64,000 nucleotides of DNA, from positions 124,001 through 188,000 of the forward strand of contig VKHL01000026.1 of assembly GCA_015146655.1 (NCBI GenBank), in the 5' to 3' direction. Positions 5,988-63,170 of the stretch are shown in pieces. This stretch comes from Ochromonas danica (Eukaryota; Sar; Chrysophyceae; Chromulinales; Chromulinaceae). The notes under the pieces were generated by a model. It had not been told where the DNA came from, made no database searches, and saw nothing but the letters and a program-made list of their open reading frames with translations. How positions within the stretch are numbered: the first letter of the stretch is position 1; each line of letters opens with the position of its first letter. The translations under genes were made by a program, and so were the position numbers.

Positions 5988-8900
5988 ATGTCGCATCGTG
6001 ATTATCGTGACTACGATCGCAGACCAAGATCTCGTGAGCGTGAGGAAAGGGGAGGTTCCCGTGAGAGAGGAAGTTCTTATGGTGGCTATGAAGAGAGGGC
6101 ATCATATCCTGGCCGATTGGGAAAGAGGGGCAGAGAGGAAGACCCTTATGAGTCAAGACCCTACAGAGCAGGTACTGTGACATTACCATCACTTCAACAA
6201 TTGTTCTAAACCTTAATTCCTTGGAAGCAGAGTCCCCTTATGGTGAACCTAGAGGCCATGAAGGTCCATCTTATGGCGGAAGAGGAGGCCATGAAGGTCC
6301 ATCTTATGGCGGAAGAGGAGGCTATGAAGGTCCATCTTATGGTGGAAGAGGAGGTTATGAAGGTCCATCTTATGGTGGAAGAGGAGGCTACGGTGGCCGG
6401 GAGAGTTATGGAGGAAGGAGTTCTTCTTCAAGTTATGGGAGGGGCGAAGAACGCCAATTTGGAGGGTCGGAAAGATTTGACGGTGGTGGAAGAGGTGGTG
6501 GTAGAGGAAGAGGGAGGAGTGATTTTGATGGCGGTCGTGGAGGAAGGGGTGGACGCGGTGGCCCTGGAGGACGCGGTCGCGGAAACAAAAAGCCTCACAT
6601 GGGCGAAGTTAATGAAATTACTCATTTAATCTCTTCTCGTCTTGATTTGTCTGACGAAAGTTGCATGAGCGTCATTGACCCTCCGTTTGAGGAAAAGCTG
6701 CGCGAGAACTTCATCGTTATGAATAAAAATAATGACCAATCTGCGGAAATCAACACCAATGCAAGAACTTGCTTGTGCACTTCCATGCCGTGGCGTACCG
6801 CTGGATCTGTGGGTGTCATGTTAGATAACGTTACGCAAGTTGTTCGTGCAAACTACTTCAAAATGAAACCTTCAAGTACTTTGCCAAAACGTATATTTAA
6901 CTATCGTGTGGGCATTTATCGAATGGGACAGAATCTTTCTGAAGAAAGAAAGTTGGAGGATTTATGCAGCGGCAAAGGCGAGAAAGCGCTCACTACAGCT
7001 ATTTTGAGAGCGTTGATTGCAAGCCATTCTAATTGGCATCAGGACAGTCAAGGAAACCCTATTGGTCTGGCCTATAATGGCACAACGACGCTTTACACAA
7101 CTCACCAGCTTGATAACTCGCAGGTTGACGTGAATATGCCTTATGAGGCAAATTATGGGGGGTATACTTTTAACGTTGTGTTGACTGAAACCAGTGGATC
7201 AGTAAATGTACCACGACCCAACGCCATCAGTAAGAACTGCTTTCTGACCTTTTTGGTTGTGAATTTGTGATGTGTGAATGCTATTTTTTAGATGAGTGGC
7301 GTGACCCAAAGAATTTTGAGGCATCTCATGCTCTGGATATCAGCTTGCTCTCTTTCGCCAGGTGGGAAGATGGAAAGGATGTACCGAATTGGATTCTTTC
7401 CGGATCCAAAGCTTTTAAGTTGCAAGGGACTCAATATAGTTTTGGTTCTGTTTTTCTTGGAAGGCTAGGTTTCTATGCAAGTTTGAAGTGCACCTTGTCT
7501 GGATTGGCGATGATCAGCGAAGTGTCGGTTGGTTGTTTCCTGAAAGGAGGTAATTTAGTTGATGTTATGGCAAACGTTGGAGGATACAGAAATATTGAGG
7601 ATATGCTGGATGAAAGTCGGCGCTTCTCTGAGAGCGGTAATAGTGGTGGCCTGCCTCCTTCTCGTCTTCATCAAATATCAGAAGTTTTAAAAGGTGCGCG
7701 AGTGAAGTTAATTCATTTGGGCCACGGAAAGAAGATCAAATCCTTCGGTAATGTTATGCTTTGCATGTCTTTTAATTTGTCTTAACTTATTGGTGATGCT
7801 TAGGCCCTAGCGCGAATGCCAAGGATAGCTCATTCGACGTGGAAGGGGAAGACTTCACTGTGGAAGAGTACTACCAGATGATGGCTACCAAGAATTCTAA
7901 GTACATGGATGCTTTAAGAAATGGCCGTCTGAAGTCCCCTACTCTTCCAACTGCGAACTTCGGATCTAATAAGAAGGCAGTGTTGGTCCCCGCTGAACTG
8001 ATATACGTTGTGGAAGGTCAGAGCAGACAGCGTGGTCTTCCTGCTGAAATAGCCAACAATATCATCAAATATGCTGCCCAAGCACCTGATGTGCGCTTCG
8101 ATTATCTCACCCGGGAATCAAAAGAGTGCGGGGTCCTAGATGCAATTCAAAGTGATCCAAACGCCATTGCATTTGGTGTTAGTGAGTTCTACGACACGCC
8201 AATGAAAGTGCAGGCATGCATTTTGCCGCCGGCCAAGCTTAAATACGGTAACAGGACTGTTGAGCCTGAATTGCGAGGATCTTGGAACCTGTCTGGTGGT
8301 ATTCAGTTTGCTCATCCAGCGAAGCCCTCTCCTGGAAAGAATACGCTATCTTACGGGCTAATAGTGACCTATGACCGTTCTGAGCCGAACAATATAGATC
8401 GATTGGTCGGGGACTTTCAACATGCCCTTGAGCACGAATCAAGGAATGTGGGAATACCTTTGCAACTGTGTACACGATTTTTCTGTGTAAAGGGTTCTGC
8501 CAATGTTCTTGATGAAGCTGTGCAAGATCTCAAGCGAAGAGGAGCTCAGATTGTTGTAGCTCTTCTTCATTGGGATGTTTACTCCTTATTGAAAGTAGTT
8601 GCAGATCGCATCTGTTTACCTTCGCAGTGCGTGAAGTGGTCCAATGTGATCAAGCCTCCTCGGAATTATCACACTTCCTTATTGGTCAAAATGAATTACA
8701 AAATGGGTGGCATCAATCATACGTTAGCTTCTCGAATGCCTCGTAGGATAGATGATGACGATTCTTTTCAAAGCCCTCCCAAGTCTATCTCTTGGCTTTT
8801 CGACGAGCCGTGCATGGTGATGGTGAGGTGTCAACTTTTATTCCAAGTTAAACTTGTTCACTGGTGTTGTGCTTGTTGCTAGGGAGTTGACGTTAATCAC

Positions 8901-9979: not shown

Positions 9980-11248
9980 TCATTTCGAAGGTGCACCGAC
10001 AATGGCCTTCACTTCATCAGCAACCACCTCTTCCACCTTAATGGCATCATTGACTATTTCTTTTTGAAATTTCTCTAGCTCCTGTTCTAAATAGGAGATG
10101 CTCTTCTCAGCTTCTTTCTCTTCTTCCACGACAGTATTTATGGCCGCATTACGAGCTGCCGTCAATTGCTCTTGAAGCTCTTCTTCGCTAGTGATCAGCA
10201 GCCTCTTTGCGAACTGCTCCCTCAGAATAGTGGGGCTCTCCTCAAGCTTCTTGCAAGAGTTATCGTTCAAGACAAAGTCGCTCCATTTGTACGGCAACTT
10301 CGCTCTCTCCATGGCCTTCTCGAGTCGTGGGAAGAGCTCAGGTCGAGCCGTTGGAGTGCGCGTATAGAGGAAAGCGCCCCCATATCCATCCCAAGCATCA
10401 TTGGATCCGCGATAATAAACCAAGACAAAATCATCGGGTTCATAGTCTAAAATGTACCAATCATCTTTATAATGCAAATATTCGTTGTCGTGATTGATTA
10501 GGTGGGCGGGATTGTCAGGATCTTGCTTGAAACGTTGAATGGCATTCTTGGTAAAGAACTCTCCATCAGGCTCGGTAATGCGCCAAAACAACTTGGCATA
10601 GAATAGCCCAGGCTCTGGGCTCGTGAAGAAGTGAACTTGACAATCGAATGTATCGAAGATTTTGTTCAAGCCAGCTGAAATATAATATCGTCCGTTCCAG
10701 ATGGAGGTATCAAAAGACTTAACCGTACCTTCCTTTGCTGGCATTGGCCATAGCCCTTCATCTTGCTTTTGAGGTACACATTTCTTTTGACTGACCGCAC
10801 AACTGTTGAATTTACCAACAACATCATTTTCAAAGAGATCTCCACAACGAATTTCACAAGCGGCTTCATCTTTTCGTCCATTGCAAGCATTCAAACAGAC
10901 TACATTCGCGAGGCATTTAGGATTTAGCATGCACTGTGCAAGCTCTAGTTGGCATGATTGCAACAAACATTTGCCGACTGCAATAGTATCGGCTGCTTGA
11001 GAATTGCTGATGGGGCTCATCGTCAAAATACATGATGTGAGGACTGCTGAAACCAATTTCTTGAAATTAATACCTTCTCTAGCCATTGATAACGAAATTA
11101 TGGAATCTCTAGGACTTCGATTTCGTATTACCCATCGATTTGTTCTAGGTATACTCAAATCATGATGATTAAACGAAAGAGCAAGACTAACGATCACCAG
11201 AAAGAACAAAGCGACTGTTTTCATGCTGCGCGACAATCTCGCCTTCAT
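9980..11248 (-). CDS. VDE: Violaxanthin de-epoxidase, plastid lumen
   Basis: Lipocalin-fold enzyme of the thylakoid lumen that uses ascorbate to de-epoxidise violaxanthin (or diadinoxanthin in algae with that cycle) under excess light. Single exon, 422 residues. The N-terminus has an ER signal peptide (KTVALFFLVIVSLALSF), a basic transit-like stretch (RNRSPRD), then a second hydrophobic segment ending SNSQAA, a thylakoid lumen signal: a three-part leader expected for a lumenal protein in a four-membrane plastid. The mature start is Cys-rich (CLLQSCQLELAQCMLNPKC), the VDE disulphide domain, followed by the lipocalin core (WNGRYYISAGLN, FDTFDCQVH, YRGSNDAWDGYGGAF) and a Glu-rich C-terminal helix thought to help membrane docking at low pH. 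Met9 is an equally good start. It is divergent to ZEP across 543 bases. Confidence 0.95.
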   Translation of the reverse strand: MKARLSRSMKTVALFFLVIVSLALSFNHHDLSIPRTNRWVIRNRSPRDSIISLSMAREGINFKKLVSAVLTSCILTMSPISNSQAADTIAVGKCLLQSCQLELAQCMLNPKCLANVVCLNACNGRKDEAACEIRCGDLFENDVVGKFNSCAVSQKKCVPQKQDEGLWPMPAKEGTVKSFDTSIWNGRYYISAGLNKIFDTFDCQVHFFTSPEPGLFYAKLFWRITEPDGEFFTKNAIQRFKQDPDNPAHLINHDNEYLHYKDDWYILDYEPDDFVLVYYRGSNDAWDGYGGAFLYTRTPTARPELFPRLEKAMERAKLPYKWSDFVLNDNSCKKLEESPTILREQFAKRLLITSEEELQEQLTAARNAAINTVVEEEKEAEKSISYLEQELEKFQKEIVNDAIKVEEVVADEVKAIVGAPSK

Positions 11249-11791
11249 CTTTTATGCTACTACTAATTACTATGTATTATTTGAAATTGTCTCTATATAC
11301 ATATAACTTGCAATAAATTGCAGTCCGAATCTTTCCTCTAGAGAATGAGACAATAAGTAATTTCACCTCCAATCCTTCTTTTCGTCCCAGTCAGATTGCG
11401 GAGATGCCCTCAAGATACACGTCACCCACTTTCTTCACTTCGCAGAGTGCGTCATTTTCCGGTACGGTTTTCTCATCTCGTCACTGAGAGAGAAAAGAAG
11501 TCGGAAAATGGAAAAATAGATCCGTTTAACGGGTTGCAGTGGCAGAGAGAGTGGCAGTGTGAGTGCAACAGAGAGAGCGGAGTGAGGGCATGCAGTCAGC
11601 CAGAGGAAGGCAAAGGAAGCAGATCTATTCCTTTCAACACAAGGTTCTTCTTCCCCTCTTGTTCCTCTTGCTTCATTGCGCATCCTTTCTCATTGGAGAG
11701 ATTGCTTGCCATTGCATTCAAACATCTGGATAAGGATATTCCTAAAGATTTCGTTGTTAAATACTTGCAAAAATTGAACGCATTCTTGACG
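11249..11791. promoter_or_regulatory. Shared divergent promoter of VDE and ZEP
   Basis: 543 bases lie between two genes for opposing steps of the xanthophyll cycle, so they probably share light control. A TGACGT core (minus strand, 11424-11419) matches the site bound by bZIP/aureochrome factors in photosynthetic stramenopiles; a single hexamer is weak evidence. An open frame continues upstream of the ZEP Met, but signal-peptide position favours the start at 11792. Confidence 0.4.
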
Positions 11792-13518
11792 ATGAGTGTT
11801 CTTCGACTTTTCATTATTGTTGCTCTCTGTCTGTTGCTGACTGTGCACGGATTGGGTCTGTCCTCTAAAGGAAAATCTTCCTTGAGAGCATTTTCCATGA
11901 GTACTGGTGGTTATCCTTCAATCAAGGCACAGGTTCCGTTGAAGGTGGCCATCATCGGTGGAGGGATTGGTGGATCGAGTTTGGGCTATGCTCTGCAAAC
12001 CCGAGGATTCGATGTCACTGTCTTTGAGAAGGCAGCCCAATTCTCACGATTTGGTGGACCTATCCAATTGGCTTCCAACGCGTTGTCATGTGTGCATGCA
12101 TTGGGTCCTGATGTCTTCGAGAAAATTATGGAACGCTTCACTTTCACTGGTACTCGCCAGTGTGGTATCAAAGATGGAGTTCGCAATGAATGGTACTCGA
12201 AGTTTGACGCCATCAAGTAAGTCTTGCTCTCTTTGTTGTGTCTCATCCTGTTGTACTAACTTGTTGATATTGTAACTTCAGGAATTTGGCGGAATGGAAT
12301 ACTTTGCCTTACACTGGTGTGATCGACCGTCCTGACTTGCAAGAGGTTCTTCTGAACTCCATGAAGCGCGGCACTGTTCGCAATTCAAAGAACATCGACA
12401 AGTATGTTGAGCATCCTGATGGCAAGGTCGACCTCTATTTCAGCGATGGCGAAGTGCTCAAAGGCTTTGACGTTTTAGTGGGTGCTGATGGTATCTGGTC
12501 CTCAGTACGCAGACAGATGTGGAACGAACCCGTTGAGAAGCCTGGCACGTGCACATACAGTGGCTACACTTTGTTTGCTGCTGAGAACATTCTTCCTCCT
12601 GACTCCAAGTACTTCAAGGATGAGGGTTACTTTGAGTCTGGATATAAAGTCTACATTGGCCCTGGAAAGTACTTTGTTACAAGTGATGTGGGCAGTGGTC
12701 GCATTCAGTGGTACGCTTTCCTGGCTTTACCTCCAGGAACTAAGGCTCGTGCCAGCAACCGCGATTATGTCAAGGAGCAATATGCGGGCTGGAGTGATGA
12801 GATCCATGCTTGCCTGGACAATACTCCGGAGGAGATCATTGAACAACGTGATCTCTATGACCGCAGGCCTTCTGTGTTCCGCAGCTGGTCGAAGGGCAGC
12901 GTTACCATGTTGGGCGATGCAGTGCATCCCATGATGCCTAACCTTGGTCAAGGTGGTTGCCAAGCCTTGGAAGATTCTTTGGTTTTGACTGAAGAGCTCT
13001 GTGCTATTACCGATCGCGCTCAAGTCCCCAAGGCTCTTCAAAATTACTACAATCGTCGTATTGTTCGATCTGCTATTGTTCAAGGAATGTCTCGTCTCAG
13101 CTCTGACATTATTGTTGAGCAGTTCTCTACTCCCTTCAGTTTGAAGGAGTTCCTAAAAGAAGGCTTGAGCTATAAGTATCTCAAGCCAACTTCAGTTCTC
13201 ACTTCTTTACTTCGTGGCTTTCTCCCAAGCATTTTCTACGCCCAGTTTGGTTACCTTTACTCGTATGTGCCCTCACCTTTCTCCAAGGAGCAAGTTAAAA
13301 GGCTCGTGGACACCTCATTAGCTAGACAACAAATCGAATTGAACACAGTTTACAAGTATTTGAAGAAAGGATTCCAAACGTACTTCAACGCCAAGACCAT
13401 GAGCTTCATGGAATACAATATTAAGAACAAGAAGATGAACAAGATCTCTGATGTTCAAGTCGTGAGAAGCGACACTGCCAAGAAGCTCAATGTTCAGCTG
13501 AGCAAGCAAAAGCGCTAA
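11792..13518 (+). CDS. ZEP: Zeaxanthin epoxidase, plastid
   Basis: FAD- and NADPH-dependent monooxygenase that converts zeaxanthin to violaxanthin (and, in algae with it, diatoxanthin to diadinoxanthin), the reverse of VDE. Two exons, 11792-12216 and 12282-13518, with a 65-bp intron; 553 residues. The start was chosen because SVLRLFIIVALCLLLTVHGLG is an ER signal peptide; a Lys/Ser-rich transit-like stretch follows. Then VAIIGGGIGGSSLGYAL (Rossmann FAD motif GxGxxG), VFEKAAQF, VGADGIWSSVR (DG motif) and GDAVHPMMPNLGQGG (second FAD motif). The FHA domain of land-plant ZEP is absent, as in many algal forms. The Lys-rich C-terminus is unremarkable. Confidence 0.95.
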
Positions 13519-26811: not shown

Positions 26812-28256
26812 TTACTTGAAAGAATTACGATAATCCTCACTTTCATCTGATGTGGCTGTAAAATCGTATTTCCTGAAAGTGAAAGTGAAAGATTTTGGTA
26901 CATTAGCAAAACCACCACCAGGGTTAAAGATATCCATAAATGCTCTTAAAGCCTCTGCATAAAACTCCTTGTGACGCTTATTGTAAGCGGGAACATCATG
27001 AGGATTTCCAAACTTGTATTTCGCAATAGTTTTGTCACCTTGAGTACGACCATTTGCTTCGATTGTTCTCTTAATCAAACCACCACGAATTAATTTGCCT
27101 GGAGAAGTTTCAGACAAAGCGAAAGTTTCTTTTATCTCATCACCTGACACAACGGTAGTGATCATATTATGAAAAGCAAAATATATAATTACGTCTCAAA
27201 ACTTGTACCTTTTGGATCGGTGTAGGTACGAGAATCGCGTACTATAACACCAGTCCCCTCCGCCATTGCGACTGTCTCGAATTCTCCGTCTTTGTCGCTG
27301 ACTTCATAATCATCTACAGAAACAGCAATAAAACAAAGAAGACCGTGAGCATAAGATATAAAAACAAGGCAGAGGTAGAAGATAGCTTATAGTACCAGTC
27401 TCCGCGGAACCTTTCAAGCTAGCTCCGCCAACGTTGGGTTGGCCAAAGTTAGCAGAACACCCCATGGCGGTGGAGGACTGGGAAAAGAATTCACCATAAT
27501 CGTCGCTCTCGGTGTGGTCAGCTTGACCGGGTTTAGAAACAAGGTTGACAAGGTTGACTCCAGACGCCTTCTCTTTCTCATTCATGATCATCTTGTACAG
27601 ATTCTGAAGCTTATCGATGGGCTCAGAGGGATAGTTGTTCTGCAGCACGACTCTCAGTGTCGAACCACTGACGTCCTGCGCCGCCACGGAGGACAACATC
27701 ATGCAACACACAACAACATTCTTGGTGACTTCGATCAGACTCTTGCTGGTGAACTGGTAAGAGTACAAGTAGAAATCGATGCGTTGAATGCCACCAAAGC
27801 AACCAATGCAAACTTTGTACAACTTCTTCTCCGCAATGTTTCCCGTATAACTTCCGAGAAGAGCATCGAGCGCCAAACCAGCTGCGCCAGTGATGGCCTC
27901 AACAAAGTCCCCGGAAATCAGACTCTTCACCATGTTGGCAACTGCTGCTTTTAGATTAGCGTCGTTGCTGTTAACACCGCATCTGACAATGAAATCAGAA
28001 GAAATCACCTGATGATTCCAATCAGAGATAGACAGATAAAACGGTGAAGAAAACAAATGTGTTGCTTTTCAATAAATTTTACCCTCTCGATTGGAATTTC
28101 CTTGGAGTCCGCTCCACCTTCAACATAAGTCTTGAAGAGAGCGAGCTTGTCTTGGGCAATGGTGTTCAAAGAATTCAATGCGTCATTTGCAGTTCTTTCG
28201 TCCTCCACACTTCTCTGAGCAGCAGCATCATGAACAACAGAGACAGTTTGTCCCAT
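26812..28256 (-). CDS. Unknown protein, gene X copy 1
   Basis: Not recognised. Four exons: 28256-28083, 28008-27396, 27313-27209, 27143-26812; introns 74, 82 and 65 bp, frame kept; 407 residues. Start chosen at MGQTVSVVHDAAAQ. Exons 1-2 (to about residue 262) are an alpha-rich region with an Ala/Gly/Leu segment (FVEAITGAAGLALDALLGSY), a Tyr/Phe-rich strand pair (GGIQRIDFYLYSYQF) and a Cys/Met hydrophobic helix (VVVCCMMLSSVAAQ). Exon 4 holds a separate basic domain ending FTFTFRKYDF. No signal peptide. Exons 1-2 and their intron are almost identical in copies 2 and 3, whereas exons 3-4 differ strongly from copy 2. Confidence 0.7.
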
Positions 28257-30980: not shown

Positions 30981-32430
30981 TTACTTGAAAGAATTAGGAT
31001 AAGAAGCATATAAAACGGCATCAAAATCCTCTTCTCTGAAAGTAAAAGTGAATTTAGCTGGTAAATTAGCCAAAACACCACCAGGTTTAAAGTTATCCAT
31101 AAATGCTATTAAAGCAGCTTTATAAAACGCCTTTTCATGGCCAGAGTAAACGTCACCATGAGGATCTCCAAAATCATAATCCACAATATTAAGTTGTTTT
31201 CCAGGAGCCATTTTTCCTTTGGTAATTGTGCGCTGAATTTTACCACCGCGTCCATGTCCTTTTCCTATTTTAATTTCGTCCACCTCAAAATCTTCTGTTA
31301 TCTCAACACCTAAACAGACGGCAGTGATCATATTAGGAAAAGTAAACTGTATAGTCAAGTTTCAACGATTGTACCATTTGGATCTGTGTAGGCACGAGAA
31401 GCCTTTCTTTCAATACCCTTCCCCGTATAAGCTGCACTTGCGAGTGTCTCGAATTCTCCTTCTTTGTCGCTGACTTCATAGTCATCTACAGAAACAGCAA
31501 TAAAACAAAGAAGACCGTGAGCATAAGATCTATAAAAACAAGGCAGGGGTAAAAGATAGCTTATAGTACCAGTCTCCGTGGAACCTTTCAAGCCAGCTCC
31601 GCCAACGTTGGGTTGACCAAAGTTAGCAGAACACCCCATGGCGGTGGAGGACTGGGAAAAGAATTCACCATAATCGTCGATCTCGGTGTGGTCAGCTTGA
31701 CCGGGTTTAGAAACAAGGTTGACAAGGTTGACTCCAGACGCCTTCTCTTTCTCATTCATGATCATCTTGTACAGATTCTGAAGCTTATCGATGGGCTCAG
31801 AGGGATAGTTGTTCTGCAGCACGACTCTCAGTGTCGAACCACTGACGTCCTGCGCCGCCACGGAGGACAACATCATGCAACACACAACAACATTCTTGGT
31901 GACTTCGATCAGACTCTTGCTGGTGAACTGGTAAGAGTACAAGTAGAAATCGATGCGTTGAATGCCACCAAAGCAACCAATGCAAACTTTGTACAACTTC
32001 TTCTCCGCAATGTTTCCCGTATAACTTCCGAGAAGAGCATCGAGCGCCAAACCAGCTGCGCCAGTGATGGCCTCAACAAAGTCCCCGGAAATCAGACTCT
32101 TCACCATGTTGGCAACTGCTGCTTTTAGATTAGCGTCGTTGCTGTTAACACCGCATCTGACAATGAAATCAGAAGAAATCACCTGATGATTCCAATCAGA
32201 GATAGACAGATAAAACGGTGAAGAAAACAAATGTGTTGCTTTTCAATAAATTTTACCCTCTCGATTGGAATTTCCTTGGAGTCCGCTCCACCTTCAACAT
32301 AAGTCTTGAAGAGAGCGAGCTTGTCTTGGGCAATGGTGTTCAAAGAATTCAATGCGTCATTTGCAGTTCTTTCGTCCTCCACACTTCTCTGAGCAGCAGC
32401 ATCATGAACAACAGAGACAGTTTGTCCCAT
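30981..32430 (-). CDS. Unknown protein, gene X copy 2
   Basis: Exons 32430-32257, 32182-31570, 31485-31375, 31309-30981; 408 residues. Exons 1-2 and intron 1 match copy 1 almost base for base. Exon 3 keeps only its first half (DDYEVSDKEGEFET) and exon 4 is about as long as in copy 1 but conserved mainly in pattern (FMDNFKPGG, KFTFTFREEDF versus FMDIFNPGG, SFTFTFRKYDF), with indels in the linker. Splice sites and frame are all kept, so both genes look functional and their C-terminal domains are either diverging fast or were exchanged. Function unknown. Confidence 0.7.
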
Positions 32431-38754: not shown

Positions 38755-39465
38755 GCACCCAGAACTAGAAGACTAAAAAGCTAAATCTGGCCATATGTGC
38801 ACAGATTCACAGTGTACAGTTTTGTAATGGAACGGTATGGTGTGGTATGGTATGGTATGTATGGCCCTCCAAAGCAAGCAAGCTCTTGTCTAAATTGCGA
38901 GTACTACCTCCGTCACCTTTTAGTTGATCTTTATCTTTTTGTGCTAAATTAAACATTCTCCAATTCACTTTCAAGAGTGCTTCATATGGCCAAAGTTAAT
39001 TTACACAATCATTTTTATTATACTTTCAATCATTATACACACGGTTATATTCATCGATGTCTATGGTGAGGTCCATACTAGTGTCCTGAACCTAGTGTTG
39101 GTTTCTTGCACCAGTATGAGGCTTGGGGTTCTTTGCTCACTTTGATTTGTTACGTTACCCACTTTGATACGATATAGTTATTTAAAATATGATTTATTTC
39201 ATTTACTCACACACACTTCTTGTACTATTCATGGTGATTGCCATTTCACTCTGAGTTGTCAGGAAGACTGATAGGTGAGGCTAAGGTGCTTGTGTTGAAG
39301 CAGTGTTGTGCATATGTGCACAGTACAGCTACCGTTTATTATTGTATTAAGGTTATTTATTTTATTCAAGAGAATTAGAGCAGCAGATTGACTGCAACGA
39401 AAATAATTTAAAGAATGCCATGATTTAGAAAAATACAGATGAAGAATGTGGTCACGCAGTGTCAC
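38755..39465. repeat. Duplicated non-coding segment, copy 3
   Basis: Matches 26005-26710, including the TGGTA microsatellite with a different unit number. Ends by fusing directly to gene X copy 3 within its exon 3 region. No gene seen. Confidence 0.8.
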
Positions 39466-40509
39466 TAAGAAAGACAATAGCCTTTCTTTCAATACCTTTC
39501 CCCGTATAAGCTGCACTTGCGAGTGTCTCGAATTCTCCTTCTTTGTCGCTGACTTCATAATCATCTACAGAAACAGCAATAAAACAAAGAAGACCGTGAG
39601 CATAAGATCTATAAAAACAAGACAGGGGTAGAAGATAGCTTATAGTACCAGTCTCCGCGGAACCTTTCAAGCCAGCTCCGCCAACGTTGGGTTGGCCAAA
39701 GTTAGCAGAACACCCCATGGCGGTGGAGGACTGGGAAAAGAATTCACCATAATCGTCGCTCTCGGTGTGGTCAGCTTGACCGGGTTTAGAAACAAGGTTG
39801 ACAAGGTTGACTCCAGACGCCTTCTCTTTCTCATTCATGATCATCTTGTACAGATTCTGAAGCTTATCGATGGGCTCAGAGGGATAGTTGTTCTGCAGCA
39901 CGACTCTCAGTGTCGAACCACTGACGTCCTGCGCCGCCACGGAGGACAACATCATGCAACACACAACAACATTCTTGGTGACTTCGATCAGACTCTTGCT
40001 GGTGAACTGGTAAGAGTACAAGTAGAAATCGATGCGTTGAATGCCACCAAAGCAACCAATGCAAACTTTGTACAACTTCTTCTCCGCAATGTTTCCCGTA
40101 TAACTTCCGAGAAGAGCATCGAGCGCCAAACCAGCTGCGCCAGTGATGGCCTCAACAAAGTCCCCGGAAATCAGACTCTTCACCATGTTGGCAACTGCTG
40201 CTTTTAGATTAGCGTCGTTGCTGTTAACACCGCATCTGACAATGAAATCAGAAGAAATCACCTGATGATTCCAATCAGAGATAGACAGATAAAACGGTGA
40301 AGAAAACAAATGTGTTGCTTTTCAATAAATTTTACCCTCTCGATTGGAATTTCCTTGGAGTCCGCTCCACCTTCAACATAAGTCTTGAAGAGAGCGAGCT
40401 TGTCTTGGGCAATGGTGTTCAAAGAATTCAATGCGTCATTTGCAGTTCTTTCGTCCTCCACACTTCTCTGAGCAGCAGCATCATGAACAACAGAGACAGT
40501 TTGTCCCAT
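39463..40509 (-). pseudogene. Gene X copy 3, lacking the C-terminal exon
   Basis: Exons 40509-40336 and 40261-39649 match copies 1 and 2 almost exactly. Exon 3 begins like copy 2 (DDYEVSDKEGEFET, YTGKGIERK) but the rest of exon 3, the last intron and all of exon 4 are deleted, the sequence joining repeat DNA at about 39466-39478. The frame reaches a stop soon after, so a shortened protein of roughly 300 residues could still be made. Listed as a broken copy; a functional short form is possible. Confidence 0.65.
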
Positions 40510-56454: not shown

Positions 56455-57024
56455 ATGGCCTCTCTTCTCTGTCTATGGCTTGTTGTCTTCATGACAATTG
56501 CTTTTATTAAAGCGTACGATGATGTTACCAATGTTTCTGATGTTAATATTGGATCAACTCCTCAAGATACCACAACCGACTTACCCCAGTCAATTGAAGG
56601 TGTCTTCAATACGAAAACCCAGAGGCAACACAGCCATATTGAACCGTGGGAGAGAAGAGCAATGCCTGTTCCCCATGGCACCGACGAGTTTATTCCAAGT
56701 TATGGTGCCACTTTCATCGAAAATGGATACAAGATTCGAGTGGATTTGCCTGGAATGCGCGAATTTAAAGTATTATTAAACAGCACTCCAAGCCTCTCCA
56801 GTCTTCCTTCTTATGATCACGATTGGGTTTTAGTGGTGGTGGATAGCAGGGACGAACAGTACCGTGTAGTCCATGTGTTGGGCTACAGACAGCGTCCTAA
56901 AGACGATCACTCTAGCGTATTTGGCAAGTTTCACATCGTTTCCAAAGTGTCATACGCTTACTACAACCCTAAAGTCACTCTAGATAATGGAGAATTGAAT
57001 ATTGTTTGGGAAAGAGTTAAGTAA
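56455..57024 (+). CDS. Secreted or ER-lumenal Hsp20/alpha-crystallin-like protein
   Basis: 189 residues, single exon. Signal peptide ASLLCLWLVVFMTIAFIKA. A Thr/Asp/Gln-rich spacer follows, then from about residue 80 an alpha-crystallin-type beta sandwich: NGYKIRVDLPGMREFKVLLN, WVLVVVDSRDEQ, FGKFHIVSKVSYAYYN, VTLDNGELNIVWE (the family's DNGVL strand). The I-X-I tail that docks into neighbours is not seen, so the oligomer may differ. Small heat-shock proteins with a signal peptide occur in the ER and plastid of algae; which one is meant here is open. Confidence 0.75.
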   Translation: MASLLCLWLVVFMTIAFIKAYDDVTNVSDVNIGSTPQDTTTDLPQSIEGVFNTKTQRQHSHIEPWERRAMPVPHGTDEFIPSYGATFIENGYKIRVDLPGMREFKVLLNSTPSLSSLPSYDHDWVLVVVDSRDEQYRVVHVLGYRQRPKDDHSSVFGKFHIVSKVSYAYYNPKVTLDNGELNIVWERVK

Positions 57025-57407
57025 ACACTCAATGCGCAGTATGATCATGTTGTTAATGCAGTAGACTATGCCGCTCATATCATCGGATAACTTATGCAAT
57101 ATATAAATTATCTCCTTTTAACTTGTTAAACTTTTGTTCAATCATCTTGTGTAGCCGGCTGTGATAAGTAATTAATAGTCTAATTGCCTTAGACATTTTG
57201 ACTTGACAGACCCCACGTTAGGATCTTTTCTAAACTTCAATCTTTGTATCTAATTATCATCAAGACTGGAAGACAAAGAAGCCAACCCAATTCGTTAGAC
57301 TTGGGACTAAACCTGGAATTACACTTTCACACAGTTAACTTAAGACGTCCAAAGTTAACGTCAGACGAACAAAAAGATCAAAAAGCAGGCCAGGCGAAGA
57401 GAAGGAA
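57025..57407. promoter_or_regulatory. Intergenic region with two GTTAAC motifs before the glycosyltransferase
   Basis: 383 bases, no gene. GTTAAC at 57334 and 57354 lies 50-75 bases before the start codon at 57408. Confidence 0.35.
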
Positions 57408-58988
57408 ATGAACTCTCGTGCTGCAAGGTGGCATAAGAAACCACATTCCTTCTTTGTCCTCCTATTCCAACTTGTGATATTATTAGTACCACTACCATGG
57501 ACTCATGCAACAATGAATATGAATAGCATGAAATCTTCCTTTGAGAAGAACTATGAGACAATCTGTTCCCACTATGCCTTTGTACAAAAATACAAAAATA
57601 TGATACAACAACCTCCTAACAAATACTTCATCTTTGTCTATCATGATAATGGTCATCATGTGAGTAATGGAGGACTTGGCGATCGTCTAGCAGGATTAAT
57701 CACAGCTTTCTTCTATGCATTACGAACCAATCGTACACTTCTGATTGAAGGCGATGTAGCCTTACAAAAGGCTTTCCAACCTTATTTTAAGTCATCTTCT
57801 CATCTTTCAAAAGTAACATGGGAAGATTGGAAATGGGCTGGATGGCAGGATTCTTTTGTTAATGAGATGGTCAATGTACATTGTATTAATCCACGTCCTG
57901 GTCATCGTCATTGTGCACTCGAAGATAGTCATCAAAAGAAATGGGAGAATAGTAAAGTTATTCGATATTATGGAAATCGCGTCTATTTGTGTAGATGGTT
58001 ATTTTCACAAGATGTTGTCTTACAAAGTGAATTACGAGAATTATGGCGAATTCTCTCTCCAACTGAGAAGAAGAGCAAACGCCATGATAACACAACCAAG
58101 ATTAATAGTAGTAGCACTGCAAATAGTACTAATAGTAGTAGTGGTGTTGGTGGCGATGGGAGTGGGAGTGAGGGTGCATGGCAGAAACAGGATGTCAACT
58201 TGTATGAGATTGCTGGTTGTGCATTACGATCTCTTCTTCATCCAACTGACTTGCTTTGGAATACTTCTATGGAGTTGATCAAACCAGCCTTATTGAAAGA
58301 AGATCGAAAGCAAATACAAGAAGCTTTTCCTCCTCTTCGTTTAGTGTCAACACATTTTCGATGTGGTGACAGTAGCTTCACTTCCAATCAGATAAACCCA
58401 CAGTGTGTTTTCAACACGCCCGCGACATGGCAAGGTACACCGTTCGGCGATGATCACTCTATGGACTCTCCCGTCGATCTCGCTCAGTGTGCTAAGCAAT
58501 TTCTTCCATCGAATAACTCACTTCCTTCTCATAGAATGGTGTTACTTTATGTTGCATCGGATAGTTCATGGTCTTCACAACAAGTTGTGGAGAAAGCTGA
58601 CTATAATTTGATCGTACAGCCTAGTGAACGCTGTCATGTTAATCTTCATCGTGATGCTTCCACTCTTCATATCTGTGCCACTCAAACATTTTCTCAATGG
58701 TTCTTGCTTGGACTGAGTGACTTTCTAATTACACAAGGTCTGCTGAAGCAGATTGCAGCGAATAATGCGTATGAAGATCAACCTAATCATATCTTCTTGG
58801 TGAACCAACTGACTGGTTATGATAAAGATGTACAAGCGCCCATCAGCGCCTTCTCTCGATTTGCTTCCATTTACTCACTAAAGACGAAAGGGTTGAGGTA
58901 TGGCTTACAATGCCATGAGATTGATGTGAAGAAGTTAGCCATGCGAACTCATGGAAACTGGGTTTGTAATCCAAACATGTTCTTCTAG
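57408..58988 (+). CDS. Fucosyltransferase-like type II membrane glycosyltransferase
   Basis: 526 residues, single exon. A short cytoplasmic basic stretch (NSRAARWHKK) precedes a signal anchor (FFVLLFQLVILLVPLPW), then a lumenal domain. NGGLGDRLAGLITAFFYALRTNRTLLI matches the N-terminal motif of xyloglucan/alpha-1,2- and alpha-1,6-like fucosyltransferases (GLGDRLxG), and VSTHFRCGDSSF is the H-x-R-x-G-D GDP-fucose-binding motif. A Ser/Asn/Gly linker near residues 230-250 (SSSTANSTNSSSGVGG) separates the two. Many N-glycosylation sites. Probably acts in the Golgi on wall or glycoprotein glycans; acceptor unknown. A second copy lacking only the first three codons and promoter lies at 61457. Confidence 0.8.
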   Translation: MNSRAARWHKKPHSFFVLLFQLVILLVPLPWTHATMNMNSMKSSFEKNYETICSHYAFVQKYKNMIQQPPNKYFIFVYHDNGHHVSNGGLGDRLAGLITAFFYALRTNRTLLIEGDVALQKAFQPYFKSSSHLSKVTWEDWKWAGWQDSFVNEMVNVHCINPRPGHRHCALEDSHQKKWENSKVIRYYGNRVYLCRWLFSQDVVLQSELRELWRILSPTEKKSKRHDNTTKINSSSTANSTNSSSGVGGDGSGSEGAWQKQDVNLYEIAGCALRSLLHPTDLLWNTSMELIKPALLKEDRKQIQEAFPPLRLVSTHFRCGDSSFTSNQINPQCVFNTPATWQGTPFGDDHSMDSPVDLAQCAKQFLPSNNSLPSHRMVLLYVASDSSWSSQQVVEKADYNLIVQPSERCHVNLHRDASTLHICATQTFSQWFLLGLSDFLITQGLLKQIAANNAYEDQPNHIFLVNQLTGYDKDVQAPISAFSRFASIYSLKTKGLRYGLQCHEIDVKKLAMRTHGNWVCNPNMFF

Positions 58989-59129
58989 ACTAATAATACC
59001 AAGCCATTACCTGCTGCAATAGATTGAATAGTCCACCACAAGGTTTACTACATACAGTCCTGAAGTCAATATCTTGCACACAAGACATATTATCCTGAAT
59101 AGAAAACTATGCGATGAACAACTGTAAAG
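57416..59129 (+). repeat. 1.7-kb duplication, parental copy
   Basis: Matches 61457-63170 at a constant offset of 4,041 bases over 1,714 bases. The one difference I noticed is T57480 against C61521, a synonymous Leu change. It starts 8 bases after the A of the start codon and ends 141 bases past the stop. Confidence 0.95.
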
Positions 59130-59190
59130 ACAAATGGATTATTGAATCTCTCTTGACATCTATAGCACACATATATCTAACGATGATATG
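59127..59190 (+). pseudogene. Degraded fragment of the deoxynucleoside kinase 3' end
   Basis: AGACAAATGGATTA then a diverged run resembles 55732-55796 (codons for DKWINQSPLPIFSTDVSNYED) with scattered substitutions and a small deletion. It abuts the right end of the parental glycosyltransferase duplication. Confidence 0.6.
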
Positions 59191-59285
59191 TGGGTTTTCT
59201 GCTTCTTTGCGCTCGTTGAGCTGTGTTGGCACTTCTTACTAAAGACGAATGCAATGGCCTGTGAAGTAAAGTAACCAATTTAATG

Positions 59286-59493
59286 TCTACTCTCCCGTGC
59301 AGCCACATGTGGTAGTAAACCTGAGGAACGCGAATTGCCATTGATGTTTTGCTATACATCCGTCACGGGGTTTAGTACCGCATGCGTTAGCCTCTACTCC
59401 GCTGTGCTGGGGACCCAGGCAGGAAACCGGAAACAGAGGGGTCCCAACGTCCCAACCGTGTGGGCAGATCTGTCCCGCGCAGTGGATAGTAGA
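59286..59493. ncRNA. Candidate structured RNA, family not assigned
   Basis: A 208-base GC-rich block in AT-rich surroundings. Its ends can pair (TCTACT 59286-59291 with AGTAGA 59488-59493, and TGC 59298-59300 with GCA 59479-59481, interrupted by mismatches). Inside are the palindrome CCACATGTGG (59303-59312) and a 7-bp hairpin stem GGGACCC/GGGTCCC (59410-59416, 59439-59445) enclosing an AAACCGGAAACAG loop. A GGAA loop in such a hairpin recalls SRP RNA helix 8, but the Alu-domain motif is not convincing. No protein frame fits. The strand is undecided. Confidence 0.35.
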
Positions 59494-59507
59494 GGTCAAT
59501 TGAACCC

Positions 59508-60236
59508 ACTAAATCTTTACTTCCGTGTTTTAGACTAATTGTTTCAGCAGTTGGGGGTTTATTAGATAGTCTTCGATGAGTTAGCTATGATAGAACTACT
59601 TAATGGGAGTAGCAAAAGGCAAATTAACTTAAAGAGAACGCCATTCCAGCAGGTTTTGGCCACAAACTTTGCAAAAGCTGCTGGGTAGCCGTTTCCTTTT
59701 CATTGACTTTGGCTTCATGAGAGAAAGAGACTTAAATTTAACTGTCTAATCTTGATGTCCAAGATTATGTCATCTGGGTCGTCTTCAGGATTGATGTGGT
59801 GGAAGTCACCTCTGCGAAAACGAAAAAAGTGTTACAGGGCTGCCAAACTGTCGTGTGCAGTGTGCTCCAGCATTCCCTGCCGTTTCGCTTTTGGATTTTG
59901 CCACTCTGGTTGGCACTACCTCAACTTCCAAGGCGAGGGAACAATAAGCACAAACAAAACCTTAAACTTGCGAGAATAAAATCGAATTTCCCCTCACCGC
60001 ACACCACACTGCGCCGTCAAGTTTTATAACCAGGGGGGGGACCACAGAGTATATTGGAGAAAGAGATCAACCCAATGCCAACAGCAGAAAGCAAACAGAC
60101 AGACTGAGAGAAGTTAACTGCTTCTTCTTCTCAACACTGGGCTTGATCTGTGAATTCTCTTGGCTGCTATAGCTATAGTTTTTCTTTGCCATTTGTTCAT
60201 TGGGGAATACCTCTCAAATTTCTTCCTGTCTGCAAG
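59508..60236. other. Intergenic region before the chimeric gene
   Basis: No gene seen. Contains a run of eight or more G near 60032-60040 and one GTTAAC at 60114, 123 bases ahead of the start codon at 60237. Confidence 0.4.
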
Positions 60237-63029
60237 ATGTCTGTTGCTCTTTCCAACCAGTGTCCGCAATATGTCTGTTGCTCTTCCATAAATATTGAAC
60301 AACTACTACGATCAAGTATCGGCCATTTCCAAGGCATGGTTTTCACCATTACTTCGTCTGGGCAAGTCAATGCGGAGCAGATTGGCCAGATCTATTTCGG
60401 TGAGCGTCTTTCTTTTTCATGCCCATATTTTATGCTTTTCGAATAATAAAATGATTCTCCTTTCGCCTTCTTTTTCATCCTAGATTCCTCCAACTTGTTA
60501 GAGAAGCTGTTGCGGAAAGAGCATTGGCTGAAGTTGGGGTGTTCCGCTGGCTGTGGCAGTGCTCCTACAAACTCTGTTACAGACCTACACAGTCTTTCTG
60601 ATCAATCAGATCAGCAAGAAGACTCATTTCCGCTTCATTCGAATGGAAAGGCAGCTCAGGGCGTATCGAGTTTGCCGGAAGACATCCTCCTGATCACATC
60701 CTTCGCTTGTTGTGCCGCCTGGAATAGTGTGAGACACCAGCTGGTGAACCAAACCCCCTCTAGATCAGGATCCGCGGCAACTTCTACGTTATCGTCTACT
60801 ATACCAATTCATCGTCTGGGCAGCGGTGACTTCTTGACGCGCAATAAGGAGATCATCTATCCCAAGGATGTTCTCATAGCGCTCGCGCCTTTCTGGGCAG
60901 CGACAAATGCTTTTCTCCTGCTTTGCACACATAGCAAAGGTGTCTTCACAAAGCTTAGTGTTGAAGCTGAGAGCCATGAAATGAAGCGTCGACTGCTAGC
61001 GCTTCAATTTCTCTCGTCGAAAGAATTGATCAATTCCGCTTCGATGAACATGAACGAAGACATACTTCGCCATATGACATACTCTCAAATATTGCACATC
61101 GAGCATTCTTTTAATTATTCACTTTACAGTCGACTGAAGAAAACTCTAAAGATGCAATTGAAAACGCCGTTGTTTCTGGCAACTTACTTCTCAATGACTC
61201 TTCATACTGACCTCTTACACTTGAACTTCGAGAGCTTTGTTCAGCGTGAGTCAAAGAAGGTAAAACCTGGTGCTTCGCAATCTAATCTTGCTTTGAACAA
61301 CACAACAAGCGCTGAGTCGACATTTTGTGAGACTCTTACCGAAAATAATAAACAAGAAAGAATTGTCCGATACGATCTTCTTTCCCTTGCAATTCTACAT
61401 GCGACTCCGAAAGCAAATCCTTTCAACGCCTTGACTGCAGTAGATAACTGCTGTAGTCGTGCTGCAAGGTGGCATAAGAAACCACATTCCTTCTTTGTCC
61501 TCCTATTCCAACTTGTGATACTATTAGTACCACTACCATGGACTCATGCAACAATGAATATGAATAGCATGAAATCTTCCTTTGAGAAGAACTATGAGAC
61601 AATCTGTTCCCACTATGCCTTTGTACAAAAATACAAAAATATGATACAACAACCTCCTAACAAATACTTCATCTTTGTCTATCATGATAATGGTCATCAT
61701 GTGAGTAATGGAGGACTTGGCGATCGTCTAGCAGGATTAATCACAGCTTTCTTCTATGCATTACGAACCAATCGTACACTTCTGATTGAAGGCGATGTAG
61801 CCTTACAAAAGGCTTTCCAACCTTATTTTAAGTCATCTTCTCATCTTTCAAAAGTAACATGGGAAGATTGGAAATGGGCTGGATGGCAGGATTCTTTTGT
61901 TAATGAGATGGTCAATGTACATTGTATTAATCCACGTCCTGGTCATCGTCATTGTGCACTCGAAGATAGTCATCAAAAGAAATGGGAGAATAGTAAAGTT
62001 ATTCGATATTATGGAAATCGCGTCTATTTGTGTAGATGGTTATTTTCACAAGATGTTGTCTTACAAAGTGAATTACGAGAATTATGGCGAATTCTCTCTC
62101 CAACTGAGAAGAAGAGCAAACGCCATGATAACACAACCAAGATTAATAGTAGTAGCACTGCAAATAGTACTAATAGTAGTAGTGGTGTTGGTGGCGATGG
62201 GAGTGGGAGTGAGGGTGCATGGCAGAAACAGGATGTCAACTTGTATGAGATTGCTGGTTGTGCATTACGATCTCTTCTTCATCCAACTGACTTGCTTTGG
62301 AATACTTCTATGGAGTTGATCAAACCAGCCTTATTGAAAGAAGATCGAAAGCAAATACAAGAAGCTTTTCCTCCTCTTCGTTTAGTGTCAACACATTTTC
62401 GATGTGGTGACAGTAGCTTCACTTCCAATCAGATAAACCCACAGTGTGTTTTCAACACGCCCGCGACATGGCAAGGTACACCGTTCGGCGATGATCACTC
62501 TATGGACTCTCCCGTCGATCTCGCTCAGTGTGCTAAGCAATTTCTTCCATCGAATAACTCACTTCCTTCTCATAGAATGGTGTTACTTTATGTTGCATCG
62601 GATAGTTCATGGTCTTCACAACAAGTTGTGGAGAAAGCTGACTATAATTTGATCGTACAGCCTAGTGAACGCTGTCATGTTAATCTTCATCGTGATGCTT
62701 CCACTCTTCATATCTGTGCCACTCAAACATTTTCTCAATGGTTCTTGCTTGGACTGAGTGACTTTCTAATTACACAAGGTCTGCTGAAGCAGATTGCAGC
62801 GAATAATGCGTATGAAGATCAACCTAATCATATCTTCTTGGTGAACCAACTGACTGGTTATGATAAAGATGTACAAGCGCCCATCAGCGCCTTCTCTCGA
62901 TTTGCTTCCATTTACTCACTAAAGACGAAAGGGTTGAGGTATGGCTTACAATGCCATGAGATTGATGTGAAGAAGTTAGCCATGCGAACTCATGGAAACT
63001 GGGTTTGTAATCCAAACATGTTCTTCTAG
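60237..63029 (+). CDS. Chimeric gene: unknown N-terminal half fused to a full fucosyltransferase-like copy
   Basis: Exons 60237-60399 and 60484-63029 (84-bp intron, phase 1) give a 902-residue frame. Residues 1 to about 379 are unrelated to the neighbour: Cys/Ser/Gln-rich start (QCPQYVCCSSINIEQLL), a hydrophobic stretch (DILLITSFACCAAW), another near VLIALAPFWAATNAFLLLC, and leucine-rich helices to LTAVDNC. I do not recognise this part. From SRAARWHKK onward it equals the gene at 57408 to the stop and beyond, including the former signal anchor, which would now be internal. The fusion is in frame at about 61457. Whatever followed LTAVDNC in the original gene is gone. Confidence 0.75.
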
Positions 63030-63170
63030 ACTAATAATACCAAGCCATTACCTGCTGCAATAGATTGAATAGTCCACCACAAGGTTTACTACATACAGTC
63101 CTGAAGTCAATATCTTGCACACAAGACATATTATCCTGAATAGAAAACTATGCGATGAACAACTGTAAAG
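61457..63170 (+). repeat. 1.7-kb duplication, inserted copy
   Basis: Copy of 57416-59129 in the same orientation. No target-site duplication, terminal repeat or poly-A is seen at its ends, so a DNA-level duplication or recombination is more likely than retrocopying. Confidence 0.95.

Follow-up and report, generated by a model that had tools for sequence, protein, structure and literature searches.

A chimeric glycosyltransferase-like gene in Ochromonas danica shares its junction with a second, diverged locus

Two nearly identical stretches of 1,714 bases lie close together on contig C26 of Ochromonas danica, one in a stand-alone glycosyltransferase-like gene and the other in the back half of a chimeric gene, which raises the question of whether the gene fusion is as young as the two copies are alike. 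Here, we analyzed the window (the whole 64,000-nucleotide stretch of C26 DNA) together with its own genome (31.2 Mb, 337 contigs), which was the scope of all DNA searches. The locus appears to carry a gene fusion of a familiar type whose past can be traced, and not a newborn gene.

The direct repeat (57416-59129 and 61457-63170, spaced 4,041 bases apart) is exact but for a single mismatch (57480 T, 61521 C), which exchanges one leucine codon for another (1 synonymous, 0 nonsynonymous changes), and a match of this length cannot be due to chance. The flanks diverge immediately at either end, with the copies alike right up to both edges of the repeat, and the left edge falls 8 bases past the first base of the stand-alone start codon (57408). 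A sequence-only reading of the window had described both the recurrence with one synonymous difference and the start of the copy just past the parental start codon, and it was right on both counts. The features of the locus are as follows.

57408..58988, plus strand: stand-alone glycosyltransferase-like (fucosyltransferase-like) gene, 526 aa, an open reading frame with an N-terminal hydrophobic anchor-like stretch
57416..59129, plus strand: repeat copy 1 (DNA search and copy alignment)
59130..59915, no strand: spacer from the stand-alone gene to the fusion, holding a dispersed-repeat piece (about 59504-59652)
59916..60236, plus strand: presumed promoter region and leader, resembling the region upstream of the C82 gene and, patchily from 59965, C9
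60237..60399, plus strand: fusion exon 1, with start and donor site common to C82
60400..60483, plus strand: GT-AG intron, present in C82 (diverged) and gone from C9 along with exon edges
60484..63029, plus strand: fusion exon 2, front half to about 61456, then the glycosyltransferase-like half
61457..61458, plus strand: fusion junction, where C82 similarity ends (61458) and the repeat begins (61457), a 2-base overlap, at the same place in C9
61457..63170, plus strand: repeat copy 2 (DNA search and copy alignment)
61488..61544, plus strand: internal anchor-like stretch, residues 390-408 (hydrophobicity scan; coordinates converted by hand)

The dispersed repeat in the spacer (about 59504-59652) has partial matches (82-92%) at 10 further sites across the genome.

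The two fusion exons (60237-60399 and 60484-63029) encode 902 aa with a sole stop at the end, so the earlier description of an in-frame 902-codon chimera behind a two-exon front, with the GT-AG intron at 60400-60483, is borne out. The internal signal anchor of that description agrees with the hydrophobic stretch at residues 390-408; it was silent on a second stretch of nearly equal strength in the front half (residues 184-202, also in C9 and C82), because of which a simple one-anchor topology of the fusion is uncertain.

The front half came from another gene, as had been proposed. A gene on C82 resembles the window from 59916 as far as the junction (61458) and no further; the fusion therefore has the 5′ portion of a C82-like gene, with both front half and upstream region of that gene's kind. 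The intact C82 gene was modelled as 734 aa, ankyrin repeats match its listed 680-aa frame weakly (in every case under the Pfam cut-off), and a DNA search of the genome with its 3′ part matches C82 itself alone. Protein searches with the front half found three places (C26, C82, and C9). The proposed loss of the old gene's 3′ end is right for the gene that gave the front half, as the 3′ part seen in C82 is missing from the fusion, and the proposed gain of a promoter holds in position only, with upstream similarity to C82 reaching back to 59916. Parts of two distinct genes are thus joined in frame, and intact genes of both parental kinds are present (C82, as modelled, and the stand-alone gene in the window).

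For the back half, a protein search gave nine matches, three of them close copies and six partial (C115, C91, and C5), which is a lower bound. The paralogous frames on these contigs (587, 531, and 616 aa, respectively; read without upstream exons, the C91 frame being listed from a TTG) share 30-31% amino acid identity with the window protein, and the stand-alone form looks like the usual one in this genome. The Pfam profile XG_FTase, which we take to be GT37, scored 20 bits against a cut-off of 23.4. The motif HFRCGD is invariant in 5 of 5 family sequences and presumably resembles the HxRxGD of other fucosyltransferases. A five-sequence profile reached four PDB sequences, all fucosyltransferases, via the GLGxR region (whole-sequence E values, 0.0057-0.009; best single stretch, E 0.38 in the two PDB matches shown in detail). 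With plant xyloglucan fucosyltransferases (XG_FTase; PDB 5koe, 5kx6, and 5kop) the window protein has a GLGxR-type motif and the following stretch in common, but it falls under the curated cut-off and matches 39 of 475 profile positions. The structure predicted for the stand-alone protein from one sequence had a mean pLDDT of 33 and was unusable for fold comparison. The fucosyltransferase assignment of the sequence-only reading is thereby reduced to a weakly supported name, fucosyltransferase-like, as both the Pfam and the PDB matches are weak. Literature searches combining fucosyltransferase, gene fusion, and stramenopile found nothing, which is no proof of absence, and among viral contigs 26 stretches fit a pattern, none of them a relative.

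A DNA search with repeat copy 1 found three places, the two C26 copies and one on C9 at 91%. The C9 locus (356000-358879, minus strand) matches window positions 60139-63157 (about 88-90%) through the junction, interrupted by a gap at 60381-60525; the C9 deletion removes the intron together with the exon edges. Its junction is identical to the base with that of C26, and the flanks of the join differ between the two loci. The C9 frame is 911 aa from stop to stop and 883 aa from the ATG equivalent to 60237. Synonymous distance (dS) between the C26 and C9 fusions is 0.163 in the front half and 0.163 in the back half (overall divergence, about 10%), and 133 of 1,680 aligned repeat bases differ, from base 13 to base 1693. 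All coding length differences observed between the two fusions preserve the frame: 6, 15, and 3 bases in the back half, a 30-base stretch of exon 1 that C26 does not have, 3 bases close to the junction, and the C9 deletion. The alignment also has a one-base gap, at base 1636, which falls past the stop codon. With the same junction on C9 at dS 0.163 in both halves, the fusion most simply predates the C9/C26 split, and the simple reading is one fusion event followed by separation.

This result bears on two of the earlier suggestions. The first was a young fusion caught soon after birth, in which the C26 fusion arose recently from the stand-alone gene. It would account for the one difference in 1,714 bases, and raw identity of the C26 front half is indeed higher to C82 (92.7%) than to C9 (89.6%). 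A newborn fusion should have no diverged copy of its junction; C9 holds one, and a C26 fusion born recently would need to rebuild that junction, with the two front halves at dS 0.163. We consider it very unlikely. The second was an assembly artefact, in which two haplotypes were merged in C26 or one copy of the repeat is not real. Having two almost identical copies within 4 kb invites such a suspicion, but the join recurs on C9, about 10% diverged and with different flanks, which speaks against an artefact as regards the join itself; moreover, the C26 copies differ in their flanks and by one base, and on C224 the assembly kept apart four light-harvesting frames that score equally and follow one another every 2.4 kb. 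We regard an artefact as improbable.

The likeness between the stand-alone copy and the back half of the C26 fusion is recent, whereas the fusion itself appears to be older: the synonymous distance of the two C26 copies is 0.003 (one change only) versus 0.16 to C9, and it is the latter number that bears on the age of the fusion, since the close likeness of a duplicated half gives no date for the join. The front halves add a further comparison (C9-C82 identity, 91.1%; dS, 0.161 for C26-C82 and 0.197 for C9-C82). From these distances, the three front halves split at about the same time, with C82 the least changed in protein. The distances fail to group the two fusions, so their sister relation rests on the shared junction and on a 24-base in-frame stretch of exon 1 (counted by eye) that C26 and C9 have in common and C82 does not, which could instead be a loss in C82.

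The history that we favor, and hold to be somewhat likelier true than false, has an old stand-alone parent, an old fusion, and then a recent conversion or unequal exchange between the C26 repeats. First, the upstream region, exon 1, intron, and early exon 2 of a C82-like gene would have been joined in frame, with two bases of overlap, to the anchored glycosyltransferase-like gene, in a single event that preceded the separation of the C9 and C26 fusion loci. Recently, gene conversion or unequal exchange would have homogenized the stand-alone gene (57408-58988) and the neighboring C26 fusion back half. A single substitution would have followed, probably in the fusion copy, since C9 shares the T of the stand-alone copy at the one variable base and the C26 fusion has C. 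The product is predicted to be a membrane protein with a long head, an internal anchor, and then the catalytic half.

That the stand-alone gene came first is favored because its similarity to the fusion starts exactly at the old junction and because the 3′ stretch of a small neighboring gene, described below, lies directly behind the C9 fusion. If it did come first, the near-identity of the C26 copies must be recent homogenization. The main rival reverses the direction: an old fusion was recently re-copied, its last 1,714 bases landing behind the small gene with an ATG 8 bases upstream. Such a re-copy accounts for near-identity over the full length and for sharp ends without any conversion, and the age of the fusion, from dS and the shared junction, suits it equally. 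Its left break, however, must land on the old junction by chance (3/1293 for a random break uniform over 60237-61530, or 3/130 over 61400-61530), and it must insert beside a gene whose fragment also abuts the C9 fusion. We think it doubtful, if far from negligible. Several points count against the favored history with its old stand-alone parent. A single conversion tract that reaches both repeat ends without a rim would be unusual; the copy alignment showed no unconverted, diverged rims at the repeat ends, which are the usual sign of conversion and not strictly required. Synonymous distance cannot tell parent from copy: the C26 copies are more alike (0.003) than the age of the split (0.16 to C9), and a recent re-copy predicts numbers equal to these. 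Finally, a tandem array headed by the fusion could also have given rise to the permuted piece on C9.

The small gene lies upstream of the stand-alone gene.

56455..57024, plus strand: small gene, 189 aa, an open reading frame; the stretch over its 3′ end (56904-57124) is found decayed behind the C9 fusion

DNA searches with it matched three contigs only (C26, C13, and C9). On C9, fusion similarity ends at 356000 and the small-gene 3′ stretch starts at 355998, running to 355799 (355799-355998, 76%). The order is swapped: on C26 the small gene precedes the stand-alone transferase, and on C9 the transferase precedes the small-gene piece. As this piece abuts the C9 fusion, the small gene and the stand-alone gene were probably neighbors before C9 formed. 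The swapped order is as expected after circularization or tandem duplication, neither of which is proved, because C9 is unrecognizable past the equivalent of about 57150 (edge set by eye). Circular-DNA duplications are reported to convert A-B order to B-A (PMC7450558); the swapped block order is shared with C26/C9, whereas the pieces here are about 2 kb, C9 similarity is lost past about 57150, and a circle is not proved. The second block does not run on to the opening point of a circle, in that 57140-57415 scored at best 18 against the adjoining 1 kb of C9, where shuffles gave as much as 31. Shared flanks were likewise not above shuffles for 57140-57415 and 59117-59915 against C9 or for 57354-57415 and 59130-59915 against C13, and 63158-65000 reached a score of 31 on C9 along some 30 bases (maximum of 30 shuffles, 28).

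The C13 relative of the small gene (L046:3472-5619; 78% and 69% in two pieces) has a 715-aa frame with a GTPase match (MMR_HSR1, 29 bits). The small gene is without about 1.3 kb that this relative has and may for that reason be an internal-deletion form. Transposase-like pieces (mariner-like by eye) lie 3′ of the C13 relative at L046:6250-7323 (DDE_3, 59 bits at 6253-6759).

Between C26 and C9, the back half of the fusion has 48 synonymous changes over 328 sites and 80 nonsynonymous changes over 1,220 sites (dN/dS 0.42; Fisher p 7e-6). Front-half dN/dS (Nei-Gojobori) is 0.60 for C26-C9 (p 0.017), 0.33 for C26-C82 (p 2e-5), and 0.34 for C9-C82 (p 6e-6). Three-way parsimony, leaving out 7 three-way sites and gapped columns, placed synonymous/nonsynonymous changes at 11/26 on the C26 branch, 16/36 on the C9 branch, and 16/7 on the C82 branch, which, with no outgroup, includes the stem of the fusions. 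Scaled by a neutral nonsynonymous/synonymous ratio of 2.55 (from simulation with an assumed 60% of transitions), these give 0.93, 0.88, and 0.17, respectively. The counts on the two fusion branches combined show no departure from neutrality (p 0.36) and are unlike those on the C82 branch (Fisher p 0.0013). Amino acid constraint on the head is clearly much weaker in both fusions than in C82, which does not imply its absence.

These counts bring in a reading compatible with the others, that the fusions are decaying by-products whose front half drifts almost freely and whose back half is alive only where the stand-alone gene renews it by conversion. The parsimony counts of the front half (11/26 and 16/36 versus 16/7) fit decay, and a mixture of one constrained copy (C26) and one unconstrained copy (C9) could lie behind the back-half dN/dS of 0.42. 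Against it, the front-half dN/dS of 0.60 at p 0.017 allows some constraint, both fusions have kept uninterrupted frames (883 and 902 aa), and coding length differences keep the frame; in neutral simulation, the whole 902-codon frame stayed open in one lineage in 1.3% of 2,000 runs at 4% change and in none at 7.5%. We see decay as possible, if on the doubtful side. A front frame open in both lineages occurs in 4.3% of neutral cases (0.043), and by itself it is weak evidence of translation. Rather unlikely, in our estimate, is a conversion-fed fusion, in which the 5′ fragment serves as promoter, start, and passenger frame and the fusion arose via insertion of a circle-derived, permuted segment; if this were true, head amino acids would drift almost freely, and the catalytic half would be kept by repeated conversion from the stand-alone parent. 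The C82-type gene, the stand-alone gene, and two fusions with one junction allow the evolution of chimera halves after the join to be measured.

Sdic of Drosophila melanogaster is a chimera. A tandem family of young genes is reported for it (PMC7475035, PMC10589255), with gene conversion a recurrent topic in the first; Sdic forms a tandem multigene family, while C26 has one fusion beside one stand-alone gene. Chimeras of Drosophila yakuba (PMC5460883) and fusion genes of Oryza (PMC9199173) are likewise reported to join part of one gene and its upstream region in frame to the body of another, but here the join occurs at two loci, and on C26 a stand-alone neighbor is near-identical to the back half.

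Recent duplication or homogenization is not rare in this genome, given a mosaic zone in the window and an array on C224, and the zone lends some support to the favored history. The zone (19340-43599) consists of duplicated blocks, direct and some inverted (among the 25 pairs listed, 14 at 97-99.4%), with repeated frames at 27310-28056, 31355-32230, and 39452-40309; a Pfam search with the first of these frames found no match. The four light-harvesting frames on C224 (8673-16382) are probably a near-identical tandem array. Light-harvesting matches in the genome number 47, and the best PDB matches of one such protein (among the best 60 of 394) are named LHCI, XLH, VCPI, and fucoxanthin proteins, which would suit a photosynthetic stramenopile. 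Elsewhere in the window, a violaxanthin de-epoxidase-type gene (9980-11248, minus strand; Pfam VDE, 331 bits) lies head to head with a FAD-binding monooxygenase-type gene (11396-13518, plus strand), a pair that we take to recall xanthophyll-cycle gene pairs.
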